Assembly: GCA_012862575.1 (NCBI GenBank)
Contig: BLSF01000085.1
Span: forward strand, 1 to 64,000
Source of the DNA: Parietichytrium sp. I65-24A
Lineage: Eukaryota; Sar; Bigyra; Thraustochytrida; Thraustochytriidae
Direction: 5' to 3'
Length of the DNA stretch: 64,000 nucleotides
A program made the translations under genes and the position numbers. Below are positions 23,201-57,274 of this stretch, one piece after another. The notes under the pieces are model-generated. The model was not told the DNA's origin and made no database searches. It saw only the letters and a list, made by a program, of their open reading frames with translations. The first letter of the stretch is position 1; the number at the start of each line of letters is the position of its first letter.

Positions 23201-26200
23201 CTCCGCAGACTTGGCGACCTCAGAGGCAAGAGGTTCAAGCCTTGATGGTAAGCAGCCTTCTGCTACTATAAAGGATGACGCCGCAGTCGGCGACCAACGA
23301 GCGGCGAAGGCAACTCCTCCCTCCACACCAGGAGGTGGTGCTTGGCGGCGAGCTGCCAACCAGCGAAGTAGCGACGGCGCCCGAGTGGGACAGCGAAAGC
23401 GACAGTATGAAGATCTCCGCTCGTTGGCACATGCCGTGTTGGCGGCGCTGTGTGGTATGGCACTGTCGCGATCCGTCAAGACCTGGCTCGGCAAGTCCGG
23501 GCTTTTGGAAGGCATATTTTGTGTCTTGTCTGACCTTGACAAGGCACGTTCGCGAGCGATTATGGAACGGAACCGTCTAGACGGCGAGCTCGGTAAGATC
23601 AGGGCCGGTCGCAAACCGAAAAAGGTTGAGTTGGGTGCAGAGACGAAGCCGTCGGCAAGCAACAACTCTGGAAATGGAGCGGGAGAGTCTGAATTAGGCG
23701 CCAACAACTTTAGCGCTAGCGAAGGAGGCGCCGCCCGATCCTCTGGTGCCCAGTCCGATGAAGGCACAGCTTTTGCAGCTGTTGGCGCCGGAGCGATGGT
23801 TCGAATATGCGAGGCGTGGACGCGCCTCCATGAGCCTGCCTTGGAGCTTATAAAGGTAGCTCTCAACTTCCACGAGGAGAATCAAAGGATTATGGCTAAT
23901 CTGCTGGTTTCAAAGATGGCTTTTCCGGATGTTGTGGATAATGTTCTGATTAAGCTGCTTTCTGATGTGGCGACCTTGCACCCTGAAGTTGGTGTGTCAA
24001 TTTGGCGGCCCCGGGAGATAATTGAAGAGATTGTCGATGGTGCAGTAATGGGCAGTGCAACTACCACCTCGGTGATGAGCTCCGTAGAAGACATACAATT
24101 CCATCTCGACCCGAAGAACTGTGGGTCAACCATCACGATCGGGGATGACGGAATCAGCGGAACGCAGTCAACATTCGAGAAATGGGGCATGGTGCGGGCA
24201 GACACCGAGTTGCCGTCTCACGGGGTAAGCTCTTGGGATGTCACCATAGATATGAGCCCTAAAGGGCACATCTTCGTCGGTGTCGCAACAAAGAACTCGA
24301 ACTTGAACTCATACCTTGGAAATGACAAGCAAGGCTGGGGCTACATCGGAAACCGTGGGGCCTGGCACAACAAGCACAAGGTGAAGACATATGGGAAAGA
24401 CTTTCGTACTGGGCACGTCATCACCGTCACCATGGACATGGACGAAGGCGTTCTCTCGTTTGCTGTTAATGGGGAGGATCAGGGAGTCGCTTTCGATGAC
24501 CTGAAAGGCAAGCAGCTCTTTCCCGCTTTCGCGCTGTACCAGAAGGGAGATAGGTTTTCAATTACCAGATGCTCGCTTGCGAAAGCTGCTCCGGGGACCG
24601 GAGAAGGAACCGGCGGACCTTCTTTGATTGGCGCAGTTAGTTCGGGTCAAAAAATGCTTTCGGGGAGCCAATTGGCGCTTTCCAAGCTACGGTTTCACCG
24701 CCCTGGTAGTGTAGTTGCGGTTATGGCTGACATAACCCCCGCCGCTGTCCTTGAAGTCACCGGCGTGCTGCAGGGATCAGCAGATATTCGAGAGGTGGCA
24801 GGAAACGAAGATGGAGCTGGCGCCGGTGCCGAGGGAAGCTCTGAGTCTGATCTAGAGCAGTCTGTCGCGCACGCTCGGAGGGGGTCTGAGGTCTGGGATG
24901 ACAACGTACCTCGGGAATATAGCAGTGTCCCTGCTGGAAAAGATTGGGCAGTTCTACGGACTGACGGGCTTGTGACTGTGGAGAATCTTGGAGATATTTC
25001 TCTCATGTCACTCGTCGAGGAGACCGAGGTGGTCGATATCGTCAGTCTCTCACAAACGAATCTGTTGAATCAGCCATTTGCGTCCTACGAGGGCAGTTTA
25101 GAAACCCTTCGGAAGCACTCGGTCTCTACCAAAAAAGACTTGCCAGCGAGTGGAACGAGTTCCGTGTCTCCGATGTTCCTCGAAATCGCAAGTCTAGACG
25201 GTCTTCCGCGGCTTGTGAACCTCGTGAGGTCCAAACTCGGCTTTTTAGCAGGAAGCAACGCTGGATTGGTGGGAGGGTTGAATGCGGATCACGGATTTTC
25301 TGGACTCTGGACAAAAGACATCAAACTCCGCTGCGGACAAGGCTCGGTAGTCAAGCACGCTGGGGAGTGGGCGATGTGGCTGGATTCGGTGGAGGCCAAT
25401 TTCAAAGTGCCTGGCTTCTCTGAATGCTTTGTACAGGACAAGAATTGTATGGGGATCTTGTTTGCGCTCATGAAGTCGGACATGTTTACTGGGGAGGACG
25501 AAAAGGCAGATTTGGAACCTTCCATCGAGGCCCTTCAGGATCCTGTCGGCGCACTAGTGACTGCTTTGACATGGTTATTCAAGTCTGGCGGCAGCGAGAC
25601 GGTTCGGTGCAGGCAGGCCGCGGCCAAGCTTGGTGTTCTTGACAGGCTATTGCTGCGTTTAGGAAGTCTTCAGTCTGAGGAGCCTCGCCGCCCCGAGCGA
25701 ACCCGGAGATTTGATGAGACCGCCAATCGATCGGCGGAGCGAGATATCCAGATGCAATTGGAGGAGGCAAGCGCTCAAAACCTGAGTGAATCTTCCGAAG
25801 GCGTTTCAGCAACACTTGGTCCAAATTTGAAGCACACAGAGGAGGACAGCGTAAAGGCGCTGTGGGCGCCAGGGTATGGGTATGGGTCAGTTGACACTGC
25901 AACCTCAGATCGCAAGCGCGAGCAACAGCAGAAAGAGAAACTGCAGCGCACTCTGGTTACGATAGAGTGTTTGTGTGCATTCTTTGATATGACGACAGAG
26001 GTCGCAGATGCTCTTGGAGATGATGTATGGAGTGAGGTCCTTGATTTGTTGGATGCATCATGCCTTTTGCGAGCTCTTATGTCCTTCTTTTTCGGCAATA
26101 CCCTGAAAGTAATTTCAGATAACTCGCAACTGTACCGGGCGTTGCTGAAACTCGTCTACGGAATCGCGACCTATCCGCAGCTCACCCCGCTATTGCTTCC

Positions 26201-28271
26201 GGTGAAAGATGTCTACCGTTCTCTGGAAGAACTGATGTCAGAGCTCGAGGAACTTTTGGAGGATATGAGCGAGGATGCTGACCTGGAAGATGAGGAGGAC
26301 GAGGATGGCGAAGGGGCTGGCTCTGGGGAAGGGCTTCTAAGCGCTGTGTCTGACGGCGCCGAAGCTACCGCAGTCAAGTCAACGTTGGAGGCCCAAAAAC
26401 AAGCGAGCTCGGCATCGCAAGAGAAGCGATCAAAGAAAACTAGGGCACCCAAAAAAGCAAGTGACAGTCTGGATGAAAGTACGGGCGAGACTGCGCTGGC
26501 CGGTTTAGTTGGACTCAATTTGAAAGGAATGATGGAGGTGACTCCACGGTTAGTTCACAAGCGCGCGAGGGCATTCAGGGAGGAACAGCGAAGGGCCGAG
26601 GCGAAGAAGCTTTCGCCAAAGGATACGAAAGTAACTGAGCAGGAGGCCAGCGTTGTCGAGAATTCTGAGGACGGCGCAAAAACTCTTGAGAACACTGCTG
26701 ATCAAGCCGGCGACGGCGCAGATGAAACAGGGTGGATGAACAGAGTTCATAGAGTTTACGAAGAAGCCCTCCGGGACGAATTGTTTGGGGACAGAGCGTT
26801 GGCCGGCGAGGACGGTAAATATACGCATCATTACCGCACTCAGATTGAGAATGACATCAAGTCAACGGTCAGCAAAACTCGAATGAAGCGTCTCAACCGA
26901 GAACTTCGCGCTCTAAAGAAAAATTTGCCGCTGCACTTCAATTCTACGGTCGCCCTGCGAGTGGACACAAACCGCCCCTTTGTTGCGCAATGTGCAATTT
27001 TTGCGCCAGATCAGACCCCGTACGACAGCGGCTGCTTCATCTTTGATATCTACTTCCCACCTGAGTACCCTTCAGAGCCTCCAAAGATGAACTTGATGAC
27101 CACTGGAAACGGGACCGTTCGATTTAACCCGAATCTGTACAACAATGGAAAGGTTTGTCTTTCGCTGCTTGGGACCTGGCGAGGTGGCGCAACTGGAAGC
27201 GAAAACTGGACAAAGAACTCCTCGTTGTGGCAGGTATTGGTGTCCATCCAAAGCGCCATCCTTGGGAGTCAATTTCCGTACTTCAATGAACCCGTAAGTT
27301 TGAGCTACTCATTAACAAAGGAGAGAAAGCGTGCGCGCTTGTGTAGATGCGATGCCGGATCGCATTGTTTTTGATTTACCGATATCCTTTGCTTACTTTT
27401 TGTTTATTTGTAGGGTGTCGAGTCGCAGTGGGGTACAGACCAAGGGGACATCCAGAAACGAATTCACTCGAATGGGGGCTACGAGCGACTTCGCGTCGCA
27501 ACGATACAGCATGCAATGGTCGGACAGTTGCGCTCTCCACCGCCAGGCTTTGAGAGGCTGATTCAAGATCATTTTCGGCTCAAAAAGCGACACATCTTGG
27601 ATGTGACTGGAGCTTGGCTACAAGAAGCCAAGGACTCGGATACAAAAGGGCATTTTAAAGCGCTCTCGAAACAGCTGGAGGATCTCCGCGAGGAACTCGA
27701 TAAGTTGGGGGACCACCCTGAAATGACTGCTCTCTATTCAGAGAAGGATGCCGAAACCCAGAAGGAAGCAGCGAAAGTCGCTTCAAACGCGATACAAGTC
27801 GGCACCGCAGCATCGACGGCAGCGGCTGGCGCTGAAAAGGATGAATCTGAATCTGAAGAAGTGCAGAAAGATGTTGAAGGCACGAGTGGATCAGGCGGCT
27901 CAGAAAAGGTTGAGTCATCCAAGAAAAGCGAGGACGAAGGCACAGATACTGAAACAGAGGAAGACGTGTTCTCAAAGCTGCTCTCCGGAGAGTTTGAGGC
28001 GTCTAACGGGACAGACACTGGCGCGGCGAGTGACGTTGGTGGAACATCTGCGAGTGCAAGCAATGATACAGGCTCCCTCGGCTTCCAAAAGGCGTTGCTC
28101 TCTTTGAAAGAAATGTGCCCAGTATACCCTCTCGGTTTACTCCGAGTAGCGCTCGAGCTTTCTAAAAGCAAGGGTTCTGATGCAGTTGACATCAACGCGG
28201 CGCTTTCCTGGGTGTTTGAAAATGGAGAAAAGTATCTCAACGAACATCTAGAACTTTTTAACTCGGACTAG
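8244..28271 (+). CDS. Giant BIRC6-class E2 ubiquitin-conjugating enzyme with SPRY, ZZ and MIB/HERC2 domains
   Basis: Two exons (8244-27293 and 27414-28271; 120-nt GT-AG intron, phase 0) encode about 6,635 residues. In order I see: a WD40-like N-terminus; a KOW-like segment (about 612-702); an Asp/Glu-rich run (about 916-965); a LamG/ConA-like domain with FTVEAWIKP and EWHHLAAVV (about 1300-1500); SPRY 1 (about 2200-2350); two ZZ zinc fingers (about 3150 and 3412-3467); MIB/HERC2 (about 4530-4600, [12 protein letters not shown]); SPRY 2 (about 5290-5445); a second acidic run (about 6000-6030); and a UBC domain. In the latter, [18 protein letters not shown] puts the catalytic Cys at 6305, and the spliced sequence FNEP-GVESQW continues the BIRC6-like fold. 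A UBA-like helical segment ends the protein. The E2 class transfers ubiquitin from E1; such giants can act as combined E2/E3. No BIR domain is recognisable. ATG 8244 is the first in frame. Confidence 0.9.
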
Positions 28272-40697: not shown

Positions 40698-43600
40698 ATG
40701 CATCAAAATACTGGTCTTGGGGTGTTCTTCGCGGCCGTTCTTTTTGGCGGCGGCCGGCTCGTGCAGGCAAGTGACAGCTCGCTGCAAGTGCTTTTATTTT
40801 CGTCCTGCGATGGAGGCTCAGTGTTCGATGCCGGCTTCAATGAAATGGCTTGGCAAGCCGCGGCTGAAGTCGCTTCCGAGCATGGGGTGGCGACGGAGTT
40901 TCTGTCATCATGCTCAGTGCAAAACCTGACAGATAAATTGAACGCGTCGCCAAAGGATCACGTTATTGCGATTGGGTACGGGAGCAGTGAGATTCTCGAC
41001 GGCAACTTCCACTTGTTCCCAGACGTCAAATTCACAACGATTGACATGGTGCCGTCCCAGCTCATTGACAACGTACAGGGTGCTGTATTCACGGAGGAGA
41101 CCGGCTCGTTCATCATGGGCGCTCTCGCGGGAATGGTATCAAAGTCAAACGTTGTTGCTGGGGTGTTTGGGTTGCCAGATGTTCCTTTGATGCGCTTCAG
41201 GAATGGCTATGTTGCAGGTGTCACATATACATGCCCCACTTGCACAATCGAAACAAGATACATATGGAACTATGGGCTCGAAGATGAAGGCAAAGCGATA
41301 TCGGAGTATCTCATCACACATTTTGGGGCCGACGTCATTTTCTGTGCCGCGGGCGGCACGGGGAACTTTGCGCTTCAGACAGCTGCAGAACTTGGCGCTT
41401 GGGTTCTCGGAGCTGACACCGATCAGTACCTGTCGCACTTTAAGAGCAATAGTTCATCAATTATGTCTTCAATGATGAAAGCCGTCGACGCCACTGTCAA
41501 GCGTGTCCTCATAGAGCATATTAACGGTGAATTCGTGGGGGGAAGATCAATTATTATGGACATGAGCAACAATGGAATTCGTCGAGCTCCTTGCCACGAA
41601 ACTTGCAACATTACAGGCGTCGACGGGGTCTGGACAGCGATTGACACACTCCAGACCAAAATTGCCACCGAGCAGATCTCGTCTGGAGTTGAATTTGCCT
41701 CTGGAAACTTTCAGTATCGGAAACGGTTTGCGAGCGACCTTGCCGGAAACTCTTGGACCAACTTGCTCTCCCATGGGACCGAGCCCACCACTCTCTTCGG
41801 CGCAGCTTCTGACGTCTTTGATGCTCATGGAAATCGGATGATGTTCTTTTTCGGCGGAGCCAACTCTTCTCAGACCTATTCCGACCAGCTCTGGGTGTAC
41901 GTACTTCCAAGCCTCTCGTGGGAAAAACGCGAAGGAGACAGCTTGATATATGGATATACGAGCGACGATGAAGTGTACCAGAATGCGTTTCCGGGACCGC
42001 GTACGAGGGCCACGTTCACTGCGCTTGCGTTGACAGATGATTCGGACGGTGCATTACTGGCACTCTTTGGCGGGTCTGACACGGATGGAAAGTTCAATGA
42101 CTTATGGCTATTCTATTATCACCCAAGCTACAACGAGCCGTTTGAGTACTGGGTCCGTGTTGACAGCACTGTCGCCTCCGGAAGCTGGCCAATCGCTCGA
42201 GACTCGCATGCTGCTGTGGCGAGCTCGACCGTGGACGACAGCGGCTACACGGAGCTTTACATGTTTGGTGGTCGAGATGCAAGTGAAAATGCTCTCAAAG
42301 ACCTTCGGAGACTGAGAATTCGGAGCAATGGTCACTCCGCACAGCCTGATGTGGAATGGACCACGTTATGTGCCGCTTGCAGTGGACCGCCAGCCAGGTA
42401 CGATCACACCTTGACCTACTACGACGGAAGCCTCTTTGTGCACGGCGGAATCGGTTCTGACGTGAAATATATCGACGACATGTGGGAGTATGTTGTCTCA
42501 GACGACAAATGGGTACAGCACACGAGCGCTCCGGTTGCGAGAACGTCTCACGGAGCGGTCGTAATGAACATGAGACCGCCTGGCGGAGAACTGACTCCAG
42601 TTATCGCGTTCTATGGCGGCTACTTCAACGAAGTCGTCTCAAACACCATTCGAACCTCTGTACAATACTTCATACTGAGCGACTCGTCTTGGCTTGTTGC
42701 CAAGTCATATGATCCTTCGACGGAAGATGTGTGCGAATACGCACAGGGGAATCGGACGTCAACGTCGTCTCTGGTTGCCAATGAACAAGTCCTCCCAGCA
42801 ATCTACAAGCTGGACGCTCTGGATGACGGAGATCCAGATATCCTGTTGCTGTTCAGCACTTCTCAAGTGCTCTCGGTGACGAACCCTCTCGCGTTTCATC
42901 CGAGCAAGAACGAGGTGGTCGAGGACAAGTTGTACAGTCCAGAGCTCTCCGGCATCTGCATTGCACTCGGGGTGTTGAGCATGGCAGTAAGCGTCGGATG
43001 TATTCTCTGGACCGTAAAGTTCAGACAGACAAGAACAGTCCAATTGAGTCAAATGGAGTTCCTGATTCTGATATGTGTCGGTGGAGTGTTGTCTTCGTCG
43101 GCAATGTTTGCCGTGGTGGTCGACGACCAAGATGACGAATTTGGTCTTGCGAGGACAGGTGCATACGAGCCAGCAAACAGGGCTTGCATGGCTCAAGTGT
43201 GGTTGTTCACGGGAGGCTTCTGTCTGACGTTGGGGCCGGCCTTTGCGAAGCTTCACAGGGTAGTGAAGATATTCAATGGGGCAACCGCAACCCGTGTCCG
43301 CGTCTCGAGTCGTCAAATGTTTAAATACATCGCTTTGCTTCTTTTGATGGATTGGAGTATCGTCGCGGTGTGGCAGTTGAGCGACCCTCTCAAGTATTAT
43401 CGCGTGACAACATACACCGACACGGACGGGAACGTTGTGGAGTCCACGGGTTATTGCCAGAGCAGCGGATCGTTTATGTTTCTTTTCCCAGTGGTATCAA
43501 TTCACATCTTGGTGTTGGTTTATGGTATTTATATCACGTACATGGCCCGAAATCTTTCAGAGGTGTTCAGCGAGGGGAAATATCTGCAATTTGCGCTGGT

Positions 43601-43877
43601 GGCTCAGTTCGAGCTTCTTGCAATCGCTTGTCCGGTTTTAATTCTGGTCTACGAGATGCCTGGTACAAGGATGGTGATCATGGTCGGAATCATATTCCTA
43701 AACACCTTCAGCGCGCTTGCCTTCATCTTTGCACCTAAACTACTTCTCTTGAAGAGGGAAACCAGCAGCTCATCAAACTCCAGGGTTAATCCCAAACTAA
43801 CTTATACCGGGCCAACTGTTGATGGGGGAAGCTCAATCGTGAGGTCCGAGTCCCACGACACGGTTGAATTCTCTTGA
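40698..43877 (+). CDS. Receptor copy 1: Bmp - Kelch - class C 7TM (intact)
   Basis: This 1,059-residue protein begins at ATG 40698 with a signal peptide (about 1-24). Residues about 28-325 are a Bmp/PnrA-type periplasmic-binding domain (CDGGSVFDAGFNEMAW, YGSSEILDGNFHLFP, VNLDQ-like GADTDQYL). Residues about 355-670 form a Kelch propeller with five GG doublets (FFFGG, ALFGG, YMFGG, FVHGG, AFYGG). A class C 7TM domain (about 749-1023) shows the GABA-B-like RACMAQVWLFTGGFCLTLGP in TM3, FAKLHRV, MDWSIVAVWQLSDPL in TM5, the loop Cys in STGYCQSSG, and FAPK after TM7. Dictyostelium Grl receptors pair Bmp with a class C 7TM; Bmp domains in bacteria bind nucleosides and similar small ligands. The ligand here is unknown. 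The Kelch insert replaces the Cys-rich linker of animal class C receptors. The Ser-rich tail ends with RSESHDTVEFS. Confidence 0.93.
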   Translation: MHQNTGLGVFFAAVLFGGGRLVQASDSSLQVLLFSSCDGGSVFDAGFNEMAWQAAAEVASEHGVATEFLSSCSVQNLTDKLNASPKDHVIAIGYGSSEILDGNFHLFPDVKFTTIDMVPSQLIDNVQGAVFTEETGSFIMGALAGMVSKSNVVAGVFGLPDVPLMRFRNGYVAGVTYTCPTCTIETRYIWNYGLEDEGKAISEYLITHFGADVIFCAAGGTGNFALQTAAELGAWVLGADTDQYLSHFKSNSSSIMSSMMKAVDATVKRVLIEHINGEFVGGRSIIMDMSNNGIRRAPCHETCNITGVDGVWTAIDTLQTKIATEQISSGVEFASGNFQYRKRFASDLAGNSWTNLLSHGTEPTTLFGAASDVFDAHGNRMMFFFGGANSSQTYSDQLWVYVLPSLSWEKREGDSLIYGYTSDDEVYQNAFPGPRTRATFTALALTDDSDGALLALFGGSDTDGKFNDLWLFYYHPSYNEPFEYWVRVDSTVASGSWPIARDSHAAVASSTVDDSGYTELYMFGGRDASENALKDLRRLRIRSNGHSAQPDVEWTTLCAACSGPPARYDHTLTYYDGSLFVHGGIGSDVKYIDDMWEYVVSDDKWVQHTSAPVARTSHGAVVMNMRPPGGELTPVIAFYGGYFNEVVSNTIRTSVQYFILSDSSWLVAKSYDPSTEDVCEYAQGNRTSTSSLVANEQVLPAIYKLDALDDGDPDILLLFSTSQVLSVTNPLAFHPSKNEVVEDKLYSPELSGICIALGVLSMAVSVGCILWTVKFRQTRTVQLSQMEFLILICVGGVLSSSAMFAVVVDDQDDEFGLARTGAYEPANRACMAQVWLFTGGFCLTLGPAFAKLHRVVKIFNGATATRVRVSSRQMFKYIALLLLMDWSIVAVWQLSDPLKYYRVTTYTDTDGNVVESTGYCQSSGSFMFLFPVVSIHILVLVYGIYITYMARNLSEVFSEGKYLQFALVAQFELLAIACPVLILVYEMPGTRMVIMVGIIFLNTFSALAFIFAPKLLLLKRETSSSSNSRVNPKLTYTGPTVDGGSSIVRSESHDTVEFS

Positions 43878-44960
43878 AAACGTGTACGTACACGTACCGG
43901 TACAGGCACCGTTAGCCTAGCTAGAAACTATTTCTTTCAGAATCAAACATTTTTTAGTATCGCACGCAGCTCACTGTGACTGTCGCGTAACAGCTGTACG
44001 TCCTGCTCCACGTTGAGTAGCAAGACAAGTAGACAGAGGCTCGGAGCTGGCAGAGATGTCTGAGATGTCGTTCGATTTTCCCATTTTTGACTCCAAGCCT
44101 TCCAGGAACTACTTAGCATGAGAGTTTCCATGCTTTTTTGCAGCCGAGGCATTGGACTTTAGGTTACTATAGTAAGTACTACGCTGTCGAGGTGGCAGCA
44201 ACATTTGACCGTTGAGAAAAACCGTGACAAGAAAAATGCTGAACAGCAAATGGGAATACCTGACATCGCCAAGTTCGATGAGTCCGAGTCGCGTGAGGTC
44301 TGATGAGCCAGTCATACCAGTGCGCGATACCATACCATGTAACGGCCCATGATCATCGACGCAGAAATTTCCGTACATATAAATGACGATTTGGAAATCG
44401 CTGGTATAGAAAGTGAGTATGCGGCGCTGGGAGCTTGGTCTTGAAGCCGTACCTCTGATTCTTCGACACCTGAGATGCTTGCTGCGGCGTTTGCGTGTGG
44501 TAGGGGAGAAAATATTGACATGTCTTGACGTGTGTAATTACAAGCCAAAGTAAGCCGTTACTTTTATTTTCTGCGATGAGCTGATCGTCCAACAACTACG
44601 AGTTTTAACCTCCGAGACTCTGACGCTTGGACCGTCTGTCTTTTCACTCTTGAAAGGGAATGAGCTTTTACCCTTAAAGTTCGCTCGCACATTTGCGCTT
44701 TTAAGTTCCTCTTTTCGCGCCCTGGAGAGTACCGGAAGTGAACGCGTGCGGCATTTGACACAGACTCCGTTGGGTCTTTGAACTATTTTGAGCTCATCCT
44801 TTGCTACCACCGCAGGGAAAAGTACCCACGCTAGCGACATCACGTGTTGCACGCGGTGGTCAAGTCATATGTTTGCGCCACCCGAGAGCTTGGAGAGCCT
44901 TGCAGTCCTTGCGATCACGGTGCAGCAAGAAACGTTGGGAGAACTGGAAGACTCTGCAGA
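43878..44960. other. intergenic spacer between receptor copies 1 and 2
   Basis: This 1.1-kb spacer starts with two adjacent palindromes just after the copy 1 stop (43880-43895 and 43894-43903). No gene, mobile element or array-wide shared block is apparent. Confidence 0.4.
43880..43903. repeat. adjacent palindromes after receptor copy 1 stop
   Basis: ACGTGTACGTACACGT (43880-43895) is a perfect 16-bp palindrome. It overlaps the start of GTACCGGTAC (43894-43903), a perfect 10-bp palindrome. They begin three bases after the stop codon. They could be a binding site or an RNA hairpin in the 3' UTR; function is not shown. Confidence 0.7.
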
Positions 44961-47900
44961 ATGCGTGCGAAGACGGTGGCTAGCATACTGACACTGTTCT
45001 TCGCGGCATACCCGCGGCGCGCATCAGCAGATGATGGGGTCGAGCTAGAGATACTGCTCTTCGCTTCTTGCGATGGAGGTACCATCGATGACTCGGGTTT
45101 TAGCGAAATGGCTTGGAGAGCGGCTGCGGAAGTGGGCACTGAAATGGGTCTTCACACTGAGTACTACACCTCGTGCTCCATTGAGAACTTGACAGCCAAG
45201 ATGGCTGATGCTCCTAAAGACCATGTCATTGCGATTGGATACGGAAGTAGCGAGATACTCGATGGCAACTTTCATCTCTTCCCCGACACCAAATTTACCA
45301 CCATTGACATGGTGCCTTCTCAGCTCATCGACAACGTCCAGGGCGCGGTGTTCGCAGAAGAGGCTGGGTCTTTCCTCATGGGCGCACTGGCTGGTCTGAC
45401 GACAACTTCCAAGGTCGTGGCTGGTGTATTCGGTATTCCTGACATACCTTTGATGCGGTTCAGAAATGGGTTTATTGCTGGCGTCAACCATGTCTGTCCA
45501 ACTTGCACTATCGAGACGAGGTACTTTTGGCATTATGGCAAGGAGGAAGAAGGCAGAGTCATTTCAGAGTATCTGATTCAAAGCTTTGGCGCTGATGTGG
45601 TGTATTGCGCCGCAGGAAAGACTGGAAACAATGCTCTTCAGGCGGCGGCAGAACTTGGCGCCTGGGTGATTGGTGCAGATACCGACCAATACCTCACGCA
45701 CTTTGGCAGCAGCAATTCGCGCATTTTGTCTTCGATGATGAAAGCAGTCGACGCAACAGTCAAGCGCGTTCTTCATAATCACTATGATGGCAAGTTCCGG
45801 GGTGGGAGGTCCATCATAATGGATTTGAGCAACGATGGGGTCCGCCGAGCACCGTGTCACGAGACTTGCAACTCCACAGGCATAGACGGGATATGGGACA
45901 TGATTGATGAGCTACAGACCAAAATTGCCACCGAGCAGATCTCCTCTGGTGTCGAGTTTGCCTCAGGGAACTTTCAATATCGGAAACGGTTTGCGAGTGA
46001 GCTCGCCGGAAACTCTTGGACCAACTTGCTCTCCCATGGGACCGAGCCCTCCACTCTCTTCGGCGCAGCTTCTGACGTCTTTGATGCTCATGGAAATCGG
46101 ATGATGTTCTTTTTCGGCGGAGCCAACTCTTCTCAGACCTATTCCGACCAGCTTTGGGTGTATGTACTTCCAAGCCTCTCGTGGGAAAAACGCGAAGGAG
46201 ACAGCTTGATATATGGATATACGAGCGACGATGAAGTGTATCAGAATGCGTTTCCGGGGCCGCGTACGATGGCCACGTTCACTGCGCTTGCGTTGACAGA
46301 TGGGTCTGAAGGCGCGTTGCTGGCATTGTTTGGTGGATCTGCCATCAACGAAAAGTTCGAGGATCTGTGGCTGTTCTACTATCACCCAAGCTACAACGAG
46401 CCATTTGAGTACTGGGTCCGTGTTGACAGCACTGTCGCCTCCGGAAGCTGGCCTATCGCTCGAGACTGGCATGCTGCTGTAGCGAGCTCGACCGTGGACG
46501 TCGGTGGCTACGCTGAGCTCTACATGTTTGGATGAAAGGGCGTTGCTGAAAACCCACTGAAGGATCTCGTCAAGTTAAGAATTCGGAGCAACGGTCACTC
46601 CGCACAGCCTGACGTGGAATGGACCACGTTATGTGCCGCTTGCAGTGGACCGCCAGCCAGATACGGTCACACCTTGACCTACTACGACGGAAGCCTCTTT
46701 GTGCACGGCGGGATTGGCTCTGACTTGAAGTACATCGACGACTTGTGGGAGTATGTTGTCTCAGACGACAAATGGATACAGCACGCCAGCGCTCCGGTTG
46801 CGAGAACGTCTCACGGAGCGGTCGTAATGAACATGAGACCGCCTGGCGGAGAACTGACTCCAGTTATCGCGTTCTATGGCGGCTACTTCAACGAAGTCGT
46901 CTCAAACACCGTTCGAACCTCTGTACAATACTTCATACTGAGCGACTCGTCTTGGCTTGTTGCCAAGTCGTATGATCCTTCAACGGAAGACGTATGCGAA
47001 TACGCACAGGGGAATCGGACGTCAACTTCGCCCCTGGTTGCGAGTGAGCAGGTCCTCCCAGCAATCTACAAGCTGGACGCTCTGGATGACGGAGATCCAG
47101 ATATCCTGTTGCTGTTCAGCACTTCTCAAGTGCTCTCGGTGACGAACCCTCTCGCGTTTCATCCGAGCAAGAACGAGGTGGTCGAGGACAAGTTGTACAG
47201 TCCAGAGCTCTCCGGCATCTGCATTGCACTCGGGGTGTTGAGCATGGCAGTAAGCGTCGGATGTATTCTCTGGACCGTAAAGTTCAGACGGACAAGAACA
47301 GTCCAATTGAGCCAAATGGAGTTTCTGATTCTGATATGTGTCGGTGGAGTGTTGTCTTCCTCGGCGATCTTTGCCGTGGTGGTCGACGACCAAGATGACA
47401 CTTTTGGTCTTGCGAGGACAGGTGCATACGAGCCAGCGAACAGGGCTTGCATGGCTCAAGTGTGGTTGTTCACGGGAGGCTTTTGTCTGACGTTGGGGCC
47501 GGCCTTTGCGAAGCTTCACAGGGTAGTGAAGATATTCAATGGCGAAACGCTCTCTCGTGTCCGCGTCTCGAGTCGTCAAATGTTTAAATACATCGCTTTG
47601 CTTCTTTTGATGGATTGGAGTATCGTCGCGGTGTGGCAGTTGAGCGACCCTCTCAAGTTCTATCGCGTTACAACATACACCGACGCAGATGGGAACATCG
47701 TGGAGTCCACGGGTTATTGCCAGAGCAGCGGATCGCTCAAGTTCCTTTTTCCAGTGGTATCAATTCACATCTTGGTGTTGGTGTATGGTATTTATATCAC
47801 GTACATGGCCCGAAATCTTTCAGAGGTGTTCAGCGAGGGGAAATATCTGCAATTTGCGCTGGTGGCTCAGTTCGAGCTTCTCGCAATCGCTTGTCCGGTT

Positions 47901-48131
47901 CTAATTTTGGTTTACGAGATGCCTGGTACAAGGATGGTGATCATGGTCGGAATCATATTCCTAAACACCTTCAGCGCGCTTGCCTTCATCTTTGCACCTA
48001 AATTTTTCTTGCTTTCTGATGAAAAATATTCCAAAACATCTTCCAAGGTCGATCCGAAGCACACGGGTCAGCAAGTCAATGCTGTCAGTACAATGAGGTC
48101 AGGCTCACGTGAGTCGATGACGTTCTCTTGA
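44961..48131 (+). CDS. Receptor copy 2: Bmp - Kelch - class C 7TM, interrupted by in-frame TGA
   Basis: ATG 44961 opens a signal peptide (MRAKTVASILTLFFAAYPRR) and a Bmp domain, then Kelch blades 1-3. At 46533-46535 a TGA replaces the second Gly of the third GG doublet (MFG then stop then KGVAENPL). The same frame then continues without a break through Kelch blades 4-5 and the whole 7TM domain to TGA 48129-48131. The upstream part alone encodes 524 residues, a secretable Bmp plus partial Kelch. Downstream, the first ATG is at 46614 and has no signal peptide. The remainder is conserved as if functional, so this may be a very young pseudogene, a gene using read-through, or a gene making a truncated soluble receptor. 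The tail ends RSGSRESMTFS. The neighbourhood uses TGA as a normal stop. Confidence 0.85.
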
Positions 48132-49503
48132 GAGACTCTCTCACTGCCTTCTTCACACTTTTTGCAAATCCTTCTACGAAATTTTAAACTTTCCGGAGAA
48201 TGTATAACGTTGATGTGAGCGCCGAGCAGATGCAAGCAATGCAAAGCAAGGGGAAAACAAGTCTTAATTTTTAAAATTAGATTAGTTGTATCTGAGCTTC
48301 CGACTTCGGGAATTATTCGCACGTTGCAACACAAATAAGTTCCCAAATTCCAAATTTAAATTCTATTTCGTTTTCTTTTGTTCGCGCTTGCGGTGGGCTC
48401 GATTTGGCCTTCCATTGACAAACCAAAATCGTGCAATGAAGGATGGCCAATTCTTCTAAATTCTAGATGCTGCCGTGGTGGCGTGACACTTGCGAATACG
48501 CAATTTATGCAACTCAAATCGTGTCGGTTGATGACAAAGTCGTCCGACCTAGCAGTAGGAGCAGATCCCAGGGAACAACGTCGTCACAAACCAATCTGAT
48601 CCATGCTGGCTTGCTTTCACAGCACACAGTCATTTCTTTTCACCGTTATTCTTCACCGCGATGGACATGACGATGAACTGTTTGTTGTTGGCCACTTCTG
48701 CATTCCCGCTATTCCTCAAGTAGCATTCGGTACCCCACTAGCCGTTGAGAGGGTCACTGCAAATGACGGTCACTGTCTGTCCGTCCGTCCGTGCGCTGAG
48801 GGGTTGAGTTGCGCGTAGCTCACAGCTTATGGCCAAGGAATGAGCGACACGTAACGGTAATTGCTCTTGCGGAATCTTCATTATGGTCAAGTTATCGTTG
48901 GAGTTGATTGCTGATTGATTGCCAATTGAGTTGGCAGCTATTCATTGGCAGTTGCGACGTGTTGGAGCGACCGGCTGCAGTTTGTACATTTAGCTCAGAG
49001 AGCAATCGCGGTGGCGTTCACGTGAACTTCTTGCCCTCTCTTTCTAATGACGGCACTGAGTACTGTACATGAACAGTGGAATGCGATGCGGTGTTTCGCG
49101 GTTGAGTGTAAGTAGGAGACTCCGTGCTCTTCAAGTGCCGCAATGGCGAGTTTGGTATGCTATTTCGACGTGGATAGCAGAATAATTTACCGATGGAAAG
49201 CTACGTTCAGTTGTGACTGAATGCCGAATACCTTTCCGCAGTAGGACTTGCGAGACAAATGAGTCTGCTCCGCATATACCTGATCTAGAGAAGGCAGTAT
49301 GTAAAGTGCAACGCTTTCGAACCCTCCACCCATCAATCGCCATACGCTCAACAGTTCGTTGCCAGGCGCACGTCACCAGCGTTGGTTTTGCATGCTGAAG
49401 GCCAAGTCAAGGCTGGACTTCTTGCAGTTTGCGGCGCTGGGGAGATGCAAGCCGTGCGTCCCGTACTTTGAACATCCTGGACAACGTTGCCGAACGCTCT
49501 CCG
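48132..49503. other. intergenic spacer between receptor copies 2 and 3
   Basis: This 1.4-kb stretch shows no convincing gene. Small ORFs here lack domains. The sequence does not look similar to the copy 1-2 spacer by eye, so duplication units appear to have diverged outside the coding parts. Confidence 0.4.
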
Positions 49504-52500
49504 ATGTGTCCGAGGATTTTGGCACTCGCAATTTTCTTGTCGCTCTACACTCCGTGCAGTTCGGGCTCACCACTTCAAGTCCTCTTGTTTGCGTCTTGCG
49601 ATGGAGGAGCAATCCATGACGCGGGCTTCAATGACATGGCTTGGAGCGCCTCGGAAGAGGCTGGCGCTGAGCTTGGAATCGATACCGATTTTTTGGCTAC
49701 CTGCTCCAACGCTGAAGCCGTGGAGGCTTTGACTGCCGATCCAAAGGACCACGTCATCGCAATAGGGTACGGTGCCTCTACAGTCCTGGATGGCAGCTTT
49801 CATCTTTTCCCTGACACCAAATTTACCACTATTGACATGGTGCCTTCTCAGCTCATCGACAACGTCCAGGGCGCGGTGTTCGCAGAAGAGGCTGGCTCTT
49901 TTATTATGGGTGCACTTGCAGGGTTGACAACGCAATCAAAAGTCGTGGCCGGAGTATTTGGTATCCCCAACACACCTTTGTTGCGTTTTAGAAATGGTTT
50001 TATTGCCGGGGTCTATCACACCTGTCCATCTTGCATCGTCGAAACGCGGCACCTCTGGAATTATGGTCTTGTGGAGGAGGGCAGAAAGATTTCAGAGTAT
50101 CTGATTCAAAGCTTTGGTGCTGATGTGGTGTATTGCGCCGCAGGAAGGACTGGAAACAATGCTCTTCAGGCGGCGTCGGAACTTGGCGCCTGGGTGATTG
50201 GTGCAGACACCGATCAGTACATCACACAATTTAATAGAAGCAGTCCACTTATCTTGTCGTCGATGATGAAAGCAGTTGACGCAACAGTCAAGCGTATTCT
50301 TCAGAATCACTATGATGGCAAGTTCCGAGGTGGGAGGTCCATCATAATGGATATGAGCAACGACGGAATCCGCCGGGCACCGTGTCACGAGACTTGCAAC
50401 ACCACAGGCATAGACGGGATATGGGACACGATCGATGAGCTACAGACCAAAATTGCCACCGAGCAGATCTCCTCTGGTGTCGAGTTTGCCTCAGGGAACT
50501 TTCAATATCGGAAACGGTTTGCGAGTGAGCTTGCCGGAAACTCTTGGACCAACTTGCTCTCCCATGGGACCGAGCCCACCACTCTCTTCGGCGCAGCTTC
50601 TGACGTCTTTGATGCTCATGGAAATCGGATGATGTTCTTTTTCGGCGGAGCCAACTCTTCTCAGACCTATTCCGACCAGCTTTGGGTGTACGTACTTCCA
50701 AGCCTCTCGTGGGAAAAACGCGAAGGAGACAGCTTGATATATGGATATACGAGCGACGATGAAGTGTATCAGAATGCGTTTCCGTGGCCGCGTACGATGG
50801 CCACGTTCACTGCGCTTGCGTTGACAGATGGGTCTGAAGGCGCGTTGCTGGCATTGTTTGGTGGATCTGCCATCAACGAAAAGTTCGAGGATCTGTGGCT
50901 GTTCTACTATCACCCAAGCTACAACGAGCCGTTCGAGTACTGGGTCCGTGTTGACAGCACTGTCGCCTCCGGAAGCTGGCCTATCGCTCGAGACTCGCAT
51001 GCTGCTGTGGCGAGCTCGACCGTGGACGACAGCGGCTACACGGAGCTCTACATGTTTGGTGGTCGAGACGCAGATGAAATCGCGCTGCAGGATCTCGTCA
51101 GGTTAAGAATTCGGAGCAACGGTCACTCCGCACAGCCTGACGTGGAATGGACCACGCTATGTGCCGCTTGCAGTGGACCGCCAGCCAGGTACGATCACAC
51201 CTTGACCTACTACGACGGAAGCCTCTTTGTGCACGGCGGGATTGGCTCCGACTTGAAGTACATCGACGACTTGTGGGAGTATGTTGTCTCAGACGACAAA
51301 TGGGTACAGCACACGAGCGCTCCGGTTGCGAGAACGTCTCACGGAGCGGTCGTAATGAACGTGCGACCGCCTGGCGGAGAACTGACTCCAGTTATCGCGT
51401 TCTACGGCGGCTACTTCAACGAAGCCGTCTCAAACACCGTTCGAACCTCTGTACAATACTTCATACTAAGCGACTCGTCTTGGCTCGTCGCCAAGTCGTA
51501 TGATCCTTCAACGGAAGACGTGTGCGAATACGCACAGGGGAATCGGACGTCAACTTCGCCCCTGGTTGCGAGTGAGCAGGTCCTCCCAGCAATCTACAAG
51601 CTGGACGCTCTGGATGACGGAGATCCAGATATCCTGTTGCTGTTCAGCACTTCTCAAGTGCTCTCGGTGACGAACCCTCTCGCGTTTCATCCGAGCAAGA
51701 ACGAGGTGGTCGAGGACAAGTTGTACAGTCCAGAGCTCTCCGGCATCTGCATTGCACTCGGATCGTTGAGCATGGCAGTAAGCGTCGGATGTATTCTCTG
51801 GACATTACGATTCAGAAAAACGAGAACAGTCAAACTGAACCAGGCGGAGTTCCTGATTCTGATTTGTGTGGGTGGAGTGTTGTCTTCCTCAGCGATCTTT
51901 GCCGTGGTGTTCGACGACCAAGATGACGACTTTGGTCTTGCGAGGACAGGTGCATACGAGCCAGCGAACAGGGCTTGCATGGCTCAAGTGTGGTTGTTCA
52001 CGGGAGGCTTCTGTCTGACGTTGGGGCCCGCCTTTGCGAAGCTTCACAGGGTACTCCAAATATTCAACGGGGCAACCGCAACCCGTGTACGAGTGTCGAG
52101 CCTCCAGATGTTTAAGTACATCGCTTTGCTTCTATTTATTGACTGGAGTGTCGTTGCCGTCTGGCAGTTCAGCGACCCATTAAAGTATTATCGAAAGACG
52201 ACATACACCGACGCAGACGGAAACATTGTCGAGTCCACGGGGTTTTGCCAGAGCAGCGGATCGTTCAAGTTCTTTTCCCAATGGTATCAATTCACGTCTT
52301 GGTGCTCTTATATGGGATTTATATCACTTACATGGCCCGAAACCTCTCCGAAATTTTCAGTGAGGGCAAGTATTTACAATTTGCGCTCGTGGCTCAGTTC
52401 GAGCTCCTCGCAATCGCTAGTCCGGTTCTCGTTCTGGTGTATGAGATTCCTGGCACAAGAATGTTGATCATGGCAGGGATTGTCTTTTTGAACACATTCA

Positions 52501-52679
52501 GCGCGCTTGCATTCATATTCGCCCCCAAATTGTGGCTGCTCAGTCGTGAAAAACATTCTCGCTCAACGTCTAAATTTGACGTTAAGCCTGTTGACGTCCG
52601 AGATACTCAACCGGGGCAGATGACGAGCTGCGTCAGCACCGTGAGATCCGGGTCAAGGAACACCGTTGAGATCTCGTAG
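49504..52679 (+). CDS. Receptor copy 3: Bmp - Kelch - class C 7TM with a one-base frameshift in the 7TM domain
   Basis: ATG 49504 starts a signal peptide (MCPRILALAIFLSLYTPC), followed by Bmp, an intact five-blade Kelch (third blade MFGGRDADEIA) and TM1-TM5. Near 52267-52274 the sequence AAGTTCTTTTCCC lacks one C relative to AAGTTCCTTTTTCC in copy 2. The original frame therefore ends at 52467 after 987 residues, with 71 unrelated ones. The correct frame resumes as FPMVSIHVLVLLYGIYITYMARN and runs to TAG 52677-52679, covering TM6-TM7 and a tail ending RSGSRNTVEIS. The deletion sits in a pyrimidine run, so an assembly or sequencing error is possible. If real, the product loses the last transmembrane helices. 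The first lobe of the Bmp domain differs clearly from copies 1 and 2 (IHDAGFNDMAWSASEEAGAE). Confidence 0.86.
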
Positions 52680-54142
52680 GGAGTCTCGAAGAAAGTCGTG
52701 TCGAAGTTAAAGTGTGGAGGATATATGCAGAATCCAGAAAATCTGAGGGGTTCTACTTCTTTTCATGACCTCTTGGTCGCATAACTTTTTCCTGCTCATG
52801 TCTTCTTGTACGGTCTTGCCGATTTAATTGTAAAGAACTTCCGTTACTTCAACCGCACGAAACTGTTCAGCCGTGCGTGAATCAACCACCCTTACTTGTA
52901 GACGAATGCTTCCAAAGAGTTCAGCGATTGCGTCATAGAACAACTACATTCACAGTCAGTCAGAACATAACAAAAAGATGAAAGAAGCAGAAAACATCAG
53001 GAAACGCAGAGAATACAAGGTGCAAGGCTGTCGTTCTTCCTACCATCTTGCTTCTTGAGCGCAAGAAGCGTGGCCAGTGACCTCTACTGCCACTGCAAGT
53101 AGCGTATGGAAAACCGTTTGTTCGTTAGGCGGCCCTGAGCCTGAGGAGGCGGCGCGTCGCAACAGAACGATCTCAAAAGGTACCTGAAGCGGTACCACTA
53201 CAATAAGTGAGAGGACGCGTACTGACTGTGAGTACCAGTTCAACATTATCTTTGTAATTTAGCCGTTTGAGTTCAAGAGTGACAGTGCAGCGCTCAGTGA
53301 GATGCTGACAGTGAGGGTGGCTGTTTGCCAGCAAAGTTGCCCGCCCCACCATGATCGACCATGGGCAGATTCAGCAGCTAGCTGCGTTCGCTTGTCTTGT
53401 GACACGTCAATCCCATAGTCTTTTGATTTGTTGATCGATTGCCTGCATGAGGAAACATGCGAGGGTAGGATGCTCACGCGCTGGAGAAAGTCAAGGGACA
53501 TTGCGAGCTCATTCATCACCTGGCCTTAGTGGCTGGTTGTGATAGTCGGTTCTACCGACTGTGAGTACCGGCGCTTTGAGTTTTTCTGTTTTGCAGTTTA
53601 TGTCAAGTTGAAACAAAGCAAGCAGGATAGAAAACTACCGTTTGGTGTTGGGAGGTGAAAGAGGGGCAACTTGGGCACGGCACTGTGCATTACAGATATC
53701 CTCATCGTGATAGGTCACCCTCCTGCTTTGAACACTGTCAATACGGCTTTTCGAGGGATACTTATCTATGTCTCTCTTAAAGATGGAGCTTGCTTCTCGT
53801 GGAGTCTGAGGGCTTCTCTCACCGCAGTAAAAAGAGACGTTTGGTTTCGGGAAAGTGATGTTTTTGAGTCAACAGTAAGCGATGATGGAAAGGTTCCCGC
53901 CTTCCAAATTAGCCTGCATGAGTTCTGATCCCTAAGAGAAAGTAAACGTCCGATTTGAGGTTGCTGTCTGTTCCAATCTGCTAGTATGGCTCTTTTCAGC
54001 TTTGAATAAATTTCATATATCTTCTCAGGACTCACAAGCAGCACTGCCACGCACAGGGCGGTGCTGTCCTCCAGACCTGCTCGGGGTGCGACTTGCACCT
54101 CAGCTGCGAGCCGATCCACGAAAGTTGCCCGAAGCTTTCCAC
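52680..54142. other. intergenic spacer between receptor copies 3 and 4
   Basis: This 1.5-kb stretch contains no supported gene. The 13-mer GACTGTGAGTACC occurs at about 53224 and 53559 on the plus strand; a related CTGTGAGTACG lies near 58677. These copies are too few and short to name an element. Confidence 0.4.
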
Positions 54143-57100
54143 ATGCGTCCATCTGCTTTCGTTCTCGCTTTCTTCTCGCTCTACACCCAGTGCAGTTCCA
54201 ACTCTGCTCTGCAAGTCCTCTTGCTTGCAGCATGCGATGGAGGAGCAATCAACGACTCGGGATTTAATGCTATGGCTTGGAGCGCCTCCGAAGAGGCTGG
54301 CGTTGAGCTTGGCGTTGTTTCAGAGTTCATGGCAATTTGCTCGATTGAAGAGGTCAAGGAAAACTTGAGTGCCAATCCCAAGGACCACGTCATCGCGGTT
54401 GGATACGGAAGCAGCGAGATACTCGATGGCAACTTTCATCTCTTCCCCGACACCAAATTTACCACTATTGACATGGTGCCTTCTCAGCTCATCGACAACG
54501 TCCAGGGCGCGGTGTTCGCAGAAGAGGCTGGGTCTTTCCTCATGGGCGCACTGGCTGGTCTGACGACAACTTCCAAGGTCGTGGCTGGTGTGTTCGGTAT
54601 TCCTAACATACCTTTGATGCGGTTCAGAAATGGGTTTATCGCTGGCGTCAACCATGTCTGTCCAACTTGCACTATCGAGACGAGGTACTTTTGGCATTAT
54701 GGCAAGGAGGAAGAAGGCAGAGTCATTTCAGAGTATCTGATTCAAAGCTTTGGCGCTGATGTGGTGTATTGCGCCGCAGGAAGGACTGGAAACAATGCTC
54801 TTCAGGCGGCGGCAGAACTTGGCGCCTGGGTGATTGGTGCAGACACCGACCAATACCTCACGCACTTTGGCAGCAGCAGTTCGCGCATTTTGTCTTCGAT
54901 GATGAAAGCAGTCGACGCAACAGTCAAGCGCGTTCTTCGGGAGCACTATAATGGAGAATTTTTAGGTGGACACTCGATAGTAATGGACATGAGCAACGAC
55001 GGGATCCGCCGGGCACCGTGTCACGAGACTTGCAACACCACAGGCATAGACGGGATATGGGACATGATTGATGAGCTACAGACCAAAATTGCCACCGAGC
55101 AGATCTCCTCTGGTGTCGAGTTTGCCTCAGGGAACTTTCAATATCGGAAACGGTTTGCGAGTGAGCTTGCCGGAAACTCTTGGACCAACTTGCTCTCCCA
55201 TGGGACCGAGCCCACCACTCTCTCTGGCGCAGCTTCTGACGTCTTTGATGCTCATGGAAATCGGATGATGTTCTTTTTCGGCGGAGCCAACTCTTCTCAG
55301 ACCTATTCCGACCAGCTCTGGGTGTACGTACTTCCAAGCCTCTCGTGGGAAAAACGCGAAGGAGACAGCTTGATATATGGATATACGAGCGACGATGAAG
55401 TGTATCAGAATGCGTTTCCGGGGCCGCGTACGATGGCCACGTTCACTGCGCTTGCGTTGACAGATGGGTCTGAAGGCGCGTTGCTGGCATTGTTTGGTGG
55501 ATCTGCCATCAACGAAAAGTTCGAGGATCTGTGGCTGTTCTACTATCACCCAAGCTACAACGAGCCATTTGAGTACTGGGTCCGTGTTGACAGCACTGTC
55601 GCCTCCGGAAGCTGGCCTATCGCTCGAGACTGGCATGCTGCTGTAGCGAGCTCGACCGTGGACGTCGGTGGCTACGCTGAGCTCTACATGTTTGGATGAA
55701 AGGGCGTTGCTGAAAACCCACTGAAGGATCTCGTCAAGTTAAGAATTCGGAGCAACGGTCACTCCGCACAGCCTGACGTGGAATGGACCACGTTATGTGC
55801 CGCTTGCAGTGGACCGCCAGCCAGATACGGTCACACCTTGACCTACTACGACGGAAGCCTCTTTGTGCACGGCGGGATTGGCTCTGACTTGAAGTACATC
55901 GACGACTTGTGGGAGTATGTTGTCTCAGACGACAAATGGATACAGCACGCCAGCGCTCCGGTTGCGAGAACGTCTCACGGAGCGGTCGTAATGAACATGA
56001 GACCGCCTGGCGGAGAACTGACTCCAGTTATCGCGTTCTATGGCGGCTACTTCAACGAAGTCGTCTCAAACACCGTTCGAACCTCTGTACAATACTTCAT
56101 ACTGAGCGACTCGTCTTGGCTTGTTGCCAAGTCGTATGATCCTTCAACGGAAGACGTATGCGAATACGCACAGGGGAATCGGACGTCAACTTCGCCCCTG
56201 GTTGCGAGTGAGCAGGTCCTCCCAGCAATCTACAAGCTGGACGCTCTGGATGACGGAGATCCAGATATCCTGTTGCTGTTCAGCACTTCTCAAGTGCTCT
56301 CGGTGACGAACCCTCTCGCGTTTCATCCGAGCAAGAACGAGGTGGTCGAGGACAAGTTGTACAGTCCAGAGCTCTCCGGCATCTGCATTGCACTCGGATC
56401 GTTGAGCATGGCAGTAAGCGTCGGATGTATTCTCTGGACATTACGATTCAGAAAAACCAGAACAGTCCAATTGAGCCAAATGGAGTTTCTGATTCTGATA
56501 TGTGTCGGTGGAGTGTTGTCTTCCTCGGCGATCTTTGCCGTGGTGGTCGACGACCAAGATGACACTTTTGGTCTTGCGAGGACAGGTGCATACGAGCCAG
56601 CGAACAGGGCTTGCATGGCTCAAGTGTGGTTGTTCACGGGAGGCTTCTGTCTGACGTTGGGGCCCGCCTTTGCGAAGCTTCACAGGGTAGTGAAGATATT
56701 CAATGGCGAAACGCTCTCTCGTGTCCGCGTCTCGAGTTGTCAAATGTTTAAATACATCGCTTTGCTTCTTTTGATGGATTGGAGTATTGTCACAGTGTGG
56801 GAATTAAGCGACCCTCTCAAGTACTACCGCGTGACAACATACACCGACGCAGATGGGAACATCGTGGAGTCCACTGGGTACTGCCGGAGCAATAGTGCCT
56901 ATCGCTTTTCACTCCCGGTTCTGTCGGTTCACCTCCTAGTGTTGGTGTACGGAATCTATGTTACATACATGGCCCGGGGTCTTTCAGAGGTGTTCAGCGA
57001 GGGGAAATATCTGCAATTTGCGCTGGTGTCTCAGTTCGAGCTTCTCGCAATCGCTTGTCCGGTTCTAATTTTGGTTTACGAGATGCCTGGTACAAGGATG

Positions 57101-57274
57101 GTGATCATGGCCGGAGTCATTTTCCTTACCACTCTCAGCGCGCTTTCCTTTATTTTCGCGCCGAAAGTAGTTCATTTAAGAAGTGAGCGTGTCGTGCGAA
57201 TTAACACAAAGGTACACGGTACATCGACCGTGAAGATTAGAAGTACAAGCATCAATATGGATGAATCAGCATGA
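54143..57274 (+). CDS. Receptor copy 4: Bmp - Kelch - class C 7TM, interrupted by the same in-frame TGA as copy 2
   Basis: ATG 54143 starts a signal peptide (MRPSAFVLAFFSLYTQC) and a Bmp domain. TGA at 55697-55699 interrupts the third Kelch blade at exactly the copy 2 position, with identical flanks (MFG, stop, KGVAENPLKDL). The frame then runs on through Kelch and 7TM to TGA 57272-57274. It is a mosaic: the first Bmp lobe resembles copy 3 (MAWSASEEAG); most of the rest of Bmp and Kelch is almost identical to copy 2; TM1 matches copy 3 (GSLSMAV, LRFRKTR); TM2-TM4 return to copy 2 (NGETLSRVRVSS); TM6-TM7 and the tail are its own (SNSAYRFSLPVLSVHLLV). Its tail lacks the RS-S motif shared by the other three. 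Upstream ORF 518 residues; downstream ORF from 55778, 498 residues. Confidence 0.85.

Follow-up and report, generated by a model that had tools for sequence, protein, structure and literature searches.

Tandem genes for candidate Bmp-Kelch-7TM class C receptors in the thraustochytrid Parietichytrium sp. I65-24A

The DNA analyzed here, subsequently called the window, comprises positions 1 to 64,000 of contig BLSF01000085.1 of Parietichytrium sp. I65-24A (GCA_012862575.1), which is contig C85 of an assembly of 42.5 Mb in 172 contigs; only genomic DNA was read. Four genes on the plus strand are arranged head to tail between positions 40698 and 57274, and each of them begins with a hydrophobic N terminus, after which a Pfam profile scan revealed, in this order, a Bmp ligand domain, a Kelch part, and a class C seven-transmembrane (7TM) part, 7tm_3. 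We favor, with modest confidence, the interpretation that these are genes for a Bmp-Kelch-7TM class C receptor, likely a nucleoside sensor of the cell surface in which a propeller would transmit the motion of the head to the helices and, through them, to G proteins.

The first gene of the array, copy 1 (40698..43877, plus strand), is an intact single frame of 1,059 amino acids, which consists of the hydrophobic N terminus, the Bmp (PnrA-like) ligand domain (40803..41582, plus strand), the Kelch part at about residues 352 to 737 (41751..42908, plus strand), the GABA-B-like class C 7TM part (42942..43739, plus strand), and a short tail. Pfam placed Bmp at residues 37 to 296 (E = 6.6e-36, 124.3 bits with a cutoff of 24.1) and 7tm_3 at residues 750 to 1015 (E = 1.3e-36, 127 bits with a cutoff of 33.5); several Kelch families matched, with Kelch_KLHDC as the best (E = 3.7e-30). 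The union of Bmp, Kelch, and class C 7TM in one chain, as read from the letters in the original prediction, was consequently recovered by profile search, in the predicted order and with both Bmp and 7tm_3 present. The same parts appeared in the same order in copy 2 (44961..48131), copy 3 (49504..52679), and copy 4 (54143..57274), all on the plus strand, when their open pieces were scanned singly.

The family extends beyond the array of the window. Eight Bmp-Kelch-7TM loci are present in the genome, five of them intact and on five contigs, plus a relic on C7. The four intact genes outside the window, on C46, C5, C7, and C19, are 32 to 44% identical to copy 1, and the 7tm_3 profile scored above the cutoff in all four. 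A hydrophobic N terminus, as judged by hydropathy alone, occurs in all five intact genes, and their frames run uninterrupted through 1,032 to 1,098 residues with conserved joins between the parts. Four other intact genes at this level of identity on other contigs argue for an old family and not for a single accident. A genome search with the Kelch part of copy 1 yielded 14 matches: the eight genes with one match each, the C7 relic with two, a piece on C87, and three weak matches in other frames. The relic (L042, C7:82500-88500, at about 1859-3320) is a Bmp-Kelch remnant with broken frames; the intact gene of C7 lies some 10 kb away. The piece on C87 (G000:C87:107922-108032) encodes 37 residues that are 89% identical to the Kelch end of copy 1 within a frame of 80 residues, and it is likely a scattered fragment.

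Genome-wide, 22 Bmp matches, at least 82 7tm_3 matches (81 above the cutoff), and at least 57 Kelch_KLHDC matches were counted, which are matches and not genes; for some 50 of these 7tm_3 matches, the reading was at most partial. At least 12 of the 57 listed Kelch matches started within 6 kb of the start of a listed 7tm_3 match, and all 12 fall into the eight Bmp-Kelch-7TM genes. At this sensitivity and among the matches listed, no Kelch part was found in any other class C receptor of the genome.

The best matches of the Bmp head among sequences of solved structures were TmpC/PnrA (2e-26), Lbp (a lipoprotein also named PnrA of S. pneumoniae), BmpA, and BmpD, with 10 distinct sequences. According to the BmpA study, the shared pocket residues are Phe27, Phe151, Phe176, Val224, Asp225, and Lys242, and Asp98, Asp225, and Lys242 are positioned to engage the ribose (PMC13325309); the acid on the side of the base is numbered Asp27 in PnrA and Asp19 in BmpD in a second study (PMC7093131). 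The BmpA numbers were mapped to TmpC by motifs and from there to copy 1 by the alignment with TmpC, so that Phe27, Phe151, Phe176, Asp225, Lys242, and Asp98 correspond to F47, F167, Y192, D240, K261, and D116, respectively. All six positions are kept in the eight heads of the Kelch type, with F/Y or D/E exchanges at three of them. Positions 167, 240, and 261 are F, D, and K in all eight heads. At position 47, seven heads have F and the eighth has Y; at position 116, seven have D and the eighth has E; and position 192 is evenly divided, with four heads carrying Y and four carrying F. Since the six pocket positions are kept in all eight heads, a nucleoside would be the likeliest guess for the ligand.

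Several findings may weigh against a nucleoside. At position 38, the counterpart of Asp27 in PnrA, only the heads of the four window copies have D, and each outside paralog has C or a gap; at position 44, seven of the eight heads have D. Both positions belong to a gappy part of the alignment. Position 192 is Y in the window copies and F in 13 of 16 bacterial rows. Moreover, Bmp-type Grl receptors of Dictyostelium are linked to other ligands, GrlH to AprA and GrlD to polyphosphate. Because these ligands differ, a Bmp head does not need to mean a nucleoside, and another small molecule or a protein may use the head as in some Grl receptors, an alternative that deserves serious weight although we would not expect it to be the case. 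It has to accommodate that both stacking aromatics, both acids, and the lysine are kept in every one of the eight Kelch-type heads and that these positions differ in 13 heads of another branch, for which the alignment is less sure due to a long branch.

These 13 heads belong to further class C receptors of the same genome (L044-L056 on contigs C23, C48, C71, C19, and C1), subsequently called the TIG type. Bmp and 7tm_3 matched in all 13 and TIG in six, and no Kelch match was found in any of them. In their pockets, again with the less certain alignment of the long branch, position 240 has N in 12 heads and H in the remaining one, and positions 116, 167, and 261 are never D, F, and K, respectively. 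Positive selection on the Bmp head of the window copies left no sign in the three computable pairs (ratio of nonsynonymous to synonymous divergence [dN/dS] of 0.17 to 0.31), the pairs with copy 1 being saturated. Another Bmp fusion was seen in two metagenome proteins of about 1,060 amino acids (P0007 and P0008), the precomputed domains of which are a protein kinase, ANF/Peripla_BP_6, and Bmp.

Evaluation of the array needs to consider the state of its copies. Four adjacent genes with one domain order had been predicted, and the order is indeed present at the coordinates given above, but the only intact gene is copy 1, and the breakage of the other three counts against the favored interpretation. 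Copy 2 contains an in-frame TGA (46533-46535) within the Kelch part, copy 4 the same TGA (55697-55699), and copy 3 lacks one base near 52271, which shifts the frame inside the 7TM part. The TGA is a working stop codon in this organism because copy 1 itself terminates with TGA. Since the stop common to copies 2 and 4 sits in 1,070 bases identical between the two (55328-56397, with the TGA of copy 4 inside), one lesion was most simply copied. Behind each lesion, the frame remains open up to the usual end.

The window array may nevertheless be a decaying cluster of pseudogenes kept similar by duplication, with copy 1 at most in use. The shared working stop, the shifted frame of copy 3, the C7 relic, and the 37-residue piece on C87 all fit such a decay, which is a credible scenario that falls short of being the probable one: the frames stay open past the lesions, dN/dS in the 7TM part is 0.08 to 0.26, a value that could date from before the lesions, and the genome contains five intact members. 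The proposal of a chemosensory family expanding locally is retained insofar as local copies exist, but decay and gene conversion are equally apparent in an array with three of four copies broken.

Similarity is unevenly distributed along the copies. Their amino acid identity is 92 to 100% in the Kelch part versus 69.5 to 85% in Bmp. Between copy 1 and copies 2 to 4, the silent sites of Bmp are saturated, and the synonymous divergence (dS) of the Kelch part is 0.26 to 0.28; for copies 2 and 4, the Kelch dS is 0.008. At shared 4-fold degenerate sites, copy 1 differed from copies 2, 3, and 4 at 47, 48, and 46 of 62 sites in codons 115 to 274 and at 21, 21, and 20 of 183 sites in codons 355 to 754. 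Segmentation of the silent changes positioned a break between codons 301 and 302 (41598..41603) in all three comparisons with copy 1, just after Bmp and five codons past the end of the Pfam match; for copies 3 and 4, a break was positioned at 293/294. Such an unevenness of silent sites is not expected from selection at the protein level but would be expected from gene conversion or unequal exchange. The mosaic of silent divergence suggests that a large portion of the Kelch-7TM block underwent gene conversion and that the Bmp heads diverged meanwhile. A run-length test for conversion at 4-fold sites with 5,000 shuffles had a mixed outcome. It was strong for copies 1 and 2 and for copies 1 and 4 (0 of 5,000 shuffles each, 7TM codons 867 to 918), weak for copies 2 and 3 (131 of 5,000), 2 and 4 (213 of 5,000), and 3 and 4 (161 of 5,000), and negative for copies 1 and 3 (4,357 of 5,000).

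Tandem arrays with exchanged blocks also occur among the TIG-type genes. In two of these arrays, the 7TM block has hardly any silent divergence: the pair L050-L051 shows silent changes in five of 328 same-residue codons in 751-1081 versus 287 of 524 before, and the pair L052-L054 in 22 of 333 in 772-1128 versus 293 of 528 before. L049 and L050 share instead a middle, Bmp-bearing block (46 of 660 in 192-899). These three are the sharp blocks among seven TIG-type pairs viewed; L049-L056 is milder, and three pairs are without a clear block. The breaks in L050-L051 and L052-L054 are about 60 to 80 codons ahead of the Pfam 7TM start, which is near the join and not at the join.

These data would be compatible with a cassette system, in which tandem neighbors trade heads and chassis (Kelch-7TM in the window and 7TM in the two other arrays) through gene conversion that often ends at or near the domain join; we put this forward tentatively and consider it somewhat doubtful. 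It is made less probable by breaks that are also located inside domains in three of the six array pairs, namely inside Bmp for copies 2 and 3 (197/198) and copies 2 and 4 (96/97) and inside the 7TM part for copies 2 and 3 and copies 3 and 4 (859/860 in both). Likewise, copies 2 and 4 show no contrast between head and chassis (1 of 62 versus 1 of 183 sites), the pairs in general are not independent of one another, and the three comparisons with copy 1 may reflect one event. If true, the cassette system would mean that an old nucleoside-sensing G protein-coupled receptor (GPCR) with a propeller as a coupler gains new heads while its output is kept. Receptor arrays whose silent sites disclose blocks exchanged between neighbors, heads and chassis separately, are a clear example of receptors that evolve by modules in a microbe.

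Between Bmp and 7TM, the Kelch part occupies about 390 residues. The original prediction of an unusual linker module at this position is accepted, but its five blades had to be replaced by six repeats on the basis of glycine-glycine (GG) motifs, tryptophan (W) strands, and a structural model. Six kelch-type GG motifs are present in each of the four outside paralogs, with one extra GG in C7 and one in C19 outside the repeat pattern not counted. Four of the five intact genes have six matching W strands (in C19, one is F instead), and the first strand lies N-terminal to repeat 1 and likely closes the last blade. Because the model of the full-length chain failed in the Kelch part, this part was folded alone. 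The Kelch-only model has six repeats closing into one ring, and its best matches are Kelch propellers, first the six-bladed KLHDC2. A closed six-repeat propeller is consequently the predicted fold. This prediction is weakened by the worn sixth repeat of copy 1, which follows five regular ones, by the modest confidence for the entry strand and the last blade (block means of about 29 to 58), by a loose Foldseek superposition (LZTR1, template modeling score of 0.50 on the model, root mean square deviation of 8.1), and by a predicted local distance difference test (pLDDT) score of the Kelch part of 20 to 35 in the full-length model. With the Kelch part at such a low pLDDT in the full-length model, the arrangement of head, propeller, and helices relative to one another is conjectural, and so is the coupling path.

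Alternatively, the propeller may be mainly a second surface for recognition or adhesion, contacting a peptide, a glycan, or a partner receptor, and not mainly a coupler, in which case the receptor would respond to two cues. In many of the top structural matches (KLHDC2, KLHL12, Keap1, and LZTR1), the Kelch propeller holds a peptide or a protein, and the propeller of the array genes is much larger than a spacer requires. Among the window copies, the Kelch part is, however, more uniform than Bmp, which fits a shared chassis better than it fits a diversifying sensor, although gene conversion alone could bring about this uniformity, and we consider a second surface rather unlikely. The three parts as separate genes or an assembly join, conceivable on genomic DNA as the only source read, are extremely improbable given one frame with the same order and conserved joins at five loci on five contigs and given that the stop codons of copies 2 and 4 interrupt the Kelch part rather than a join between domains.

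The 7TM part is most similar, among solved structures, to GABA-B2 (2.5e-20), followed by GABA-B1, GPR156, and GPR179/158, and the neighbors of the whole-chain model include GABA-B, GPR156, and GPR158. Seven helices are modeled at 748-1027, with a block pLDDT mostly of about 60 to 80 and dips to 38. Residues C830, C920, K851, E959, F1011, P1013, and K1014 are identical in all five intact genes; C830 and C920 are presumably the disulfide pair of transmembrane helix (TM) 3 and a loop, K851 and E959 the TM3 lysine and the TM6 acid, and F1011, P1013, and K1014 the FxPK end of TM7. An ANF_receptor domain was not matched by Pfam in copy 1 at E values up to 1.

The ancestry of the 7TM part was judged from a tree of 36 rows, 33 of the 82 matches of this genome (the 30 listed best plus three) and three outside proteins, with the split 7TM part of copy 3 left out. 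The seven Bmp-Kelch rows formed one side of a moderately supported split (78/85; 76% of the bootstrap trees). A 100/98 split separated these rows, eight ANF receptors, the three outside proteins, and one other row from the 13 TIG-type receptors and four others. In the tree of Bmp heads, which contained 21 of the 22 own matches (the C7 relic was dropped) and 16 of the 22 Bmp matches of an outside search, the TIG type was apart (100/100) and the Kelch type beside bacterial PnrA-like proteins, the Kelch-type heads forming a unit in 33% of the bootstrap trees. A common origin with the TIG-type Bmp receptors was not supported, since both trees part them. The simplest reading of the trees would be two separate unions of Bmp with 7TM or a swap of heads. 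The GABA-B/Grl-like nature originally assigned to the helices is hence supported for GABA-B, with GABA-B2 as nearest solved structure, but the part groups with the ANF-headed receptors of this genome and not with its 13 other Bmp-7TM receptors.

The genome holds a large set of class C receptors and G proteins, with at least 82 7tm_3 matches and 17 G-alpha matches above the cutoff, again matches and not genes. These 17 are from 24 G-alpha matches, and 11 are nearly full length, one of these with two internal stops. Enrichment of the class C receptor (IPR017978) and G-alpha domains in thraustochytrids is reported in PMC6050695, in passages that give no domain architectures.

Taken as a nucleoside receptor, the protein may work as follows. 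Outside the cell, the Bmp clamshell would close on a nucleoside from decaying matter, prey, or neighbors. The propeller, which would keep the head off the membrane, would relay the change via its last blade to TM1. The strand with W353, by which the chain enters from Bmp, would be part of this last blade, from which the chain continues into TM1. With entry and exit sharing this blade, it could be the mechanical link, leaving the other five blades free as a spacer or contact surface. The 7TM part, perhaps in a dimer, would then engage a G-alpha protein from the set encoded in the genome.

Two consequences would follow from such a design. In GABA-B, mGlu, and CaSR, the connection between head and helices is either a short stalk or a Cys-rich domain; a six-bladed propeller at this joint raises the question of how a movement of the head reaches the helices and would offer a natural spacer for testing it. 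Animal adenosine receptors are class A receptors, so that a near-complete bacterial nucleoside pocket on the head of a eukaryotic receptor would make a nucleoside sensor unlike them.

Other features of the window and the genome were recorded as well. At window positions 18-1865 on the minus strand, a 5'-nucleotidase-like gene (Metallophos plus 5_nucleotid_C) would fit a nucleoside theme, but its distance of about 39 kb from the array makes it no evidence. A single open frame of 6,417 codons (8121-27371, plus strand) matched Laminin_G_3, SPRY, ZZ, and MIB_HERC2 in its first 5,000 codons, which were scanned. No rRNA or tRNA was found within the window. Elsewhere, a CFAP96-like gene is present, and the PfaA model for the omega-3 polyunsaturated fatty acid synthase, an enzyme typical of many thraustochytrids although its lack does not speak against membership, had no genome match at the cutoff; a frame of 5,583 codons (G000:C66:8562-22499) with repeated sub-cutoff matches to parts of this model is perhaps a large polyketide-type synthase.

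Concerning precedents, no report of a union of Kelch with a class C or other 7TM part was seen in titles and the starts of abstracts among the open-licence papers listed, although such a report may still exist. In a 2025 survey on receptors of animal relatives, the heads include ANF, EGF, 5_nucleotid_C, and Ephrin_rec-like domains, and "kelch" occurs zero times (PMC12716839). Outside protein searches gave 2, 46, and 1 matches, none of which holds two of the three domains according to the listed Pfam domains; the searches with 2 and 46 matches scored only candidates sharing most words. The 46 matches were 22 Bmp, 22 Kelch, and two 7tm_3 proteins; the matches named in these searches are mostly prokaryotic or metagenomic. 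Among viral contigs, none of 216 pattern matches was confirmed. The architecture would therefore be a variant of the class C GPCR for which the protein searches found no equal elsewhere.

The closest known system confirms the precedent that had been named for Bmp with a class C 7TM part: in Dictyostelium Grl receptors, a signal peptide and a Bmp head precede the class C 7TM part of the same chain, as described in PMC1885808 and PMC10445921, two papers in which "kelch" occurs zero times. Their Bmp domain joins the 7TM part without a further domain, whereas the Kelch part stands between them here, and those Bmp-bearing Grl proteins that are listed there contain 749 to 819 residues compared to 1,032 to 1,098. 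GABA-B and GPR156 provide the nearest solved 7TM parts, and the class C marks and the grouping with the ANF-headed receptors of this genome agree with such a kinship; the array genes differ in having a Bmp (PnrA-type) head in place of ANF_receptor, followed by a Kelch part ahead of the helices. The similarity to PnrA/TmpC, BmpA, and BmpD covers sequence, predicted fold, and most pocket residues; these proteins are bacterial lipoproteins proposed to feed a transporter, according to PMC7093131 and PMC13325309, whereas the domain is fused to a receptor here. The TIG-type receptors of the same genome resemble the array genes in possessing Bmp and 7tm_3 and in tandem exchange, and they differ in the branches of Bmp and 7TM, in the pocket, and in the Kelch part. 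Kelch propellers of the KLHDC2/LZTR1 type act inside the cell. They agree with the Kelch part in repeat signature and predicted fold, but the propeller is positioned here ahead of TM1 and behind a signal-peptide-like start, which would place it outside the cell.

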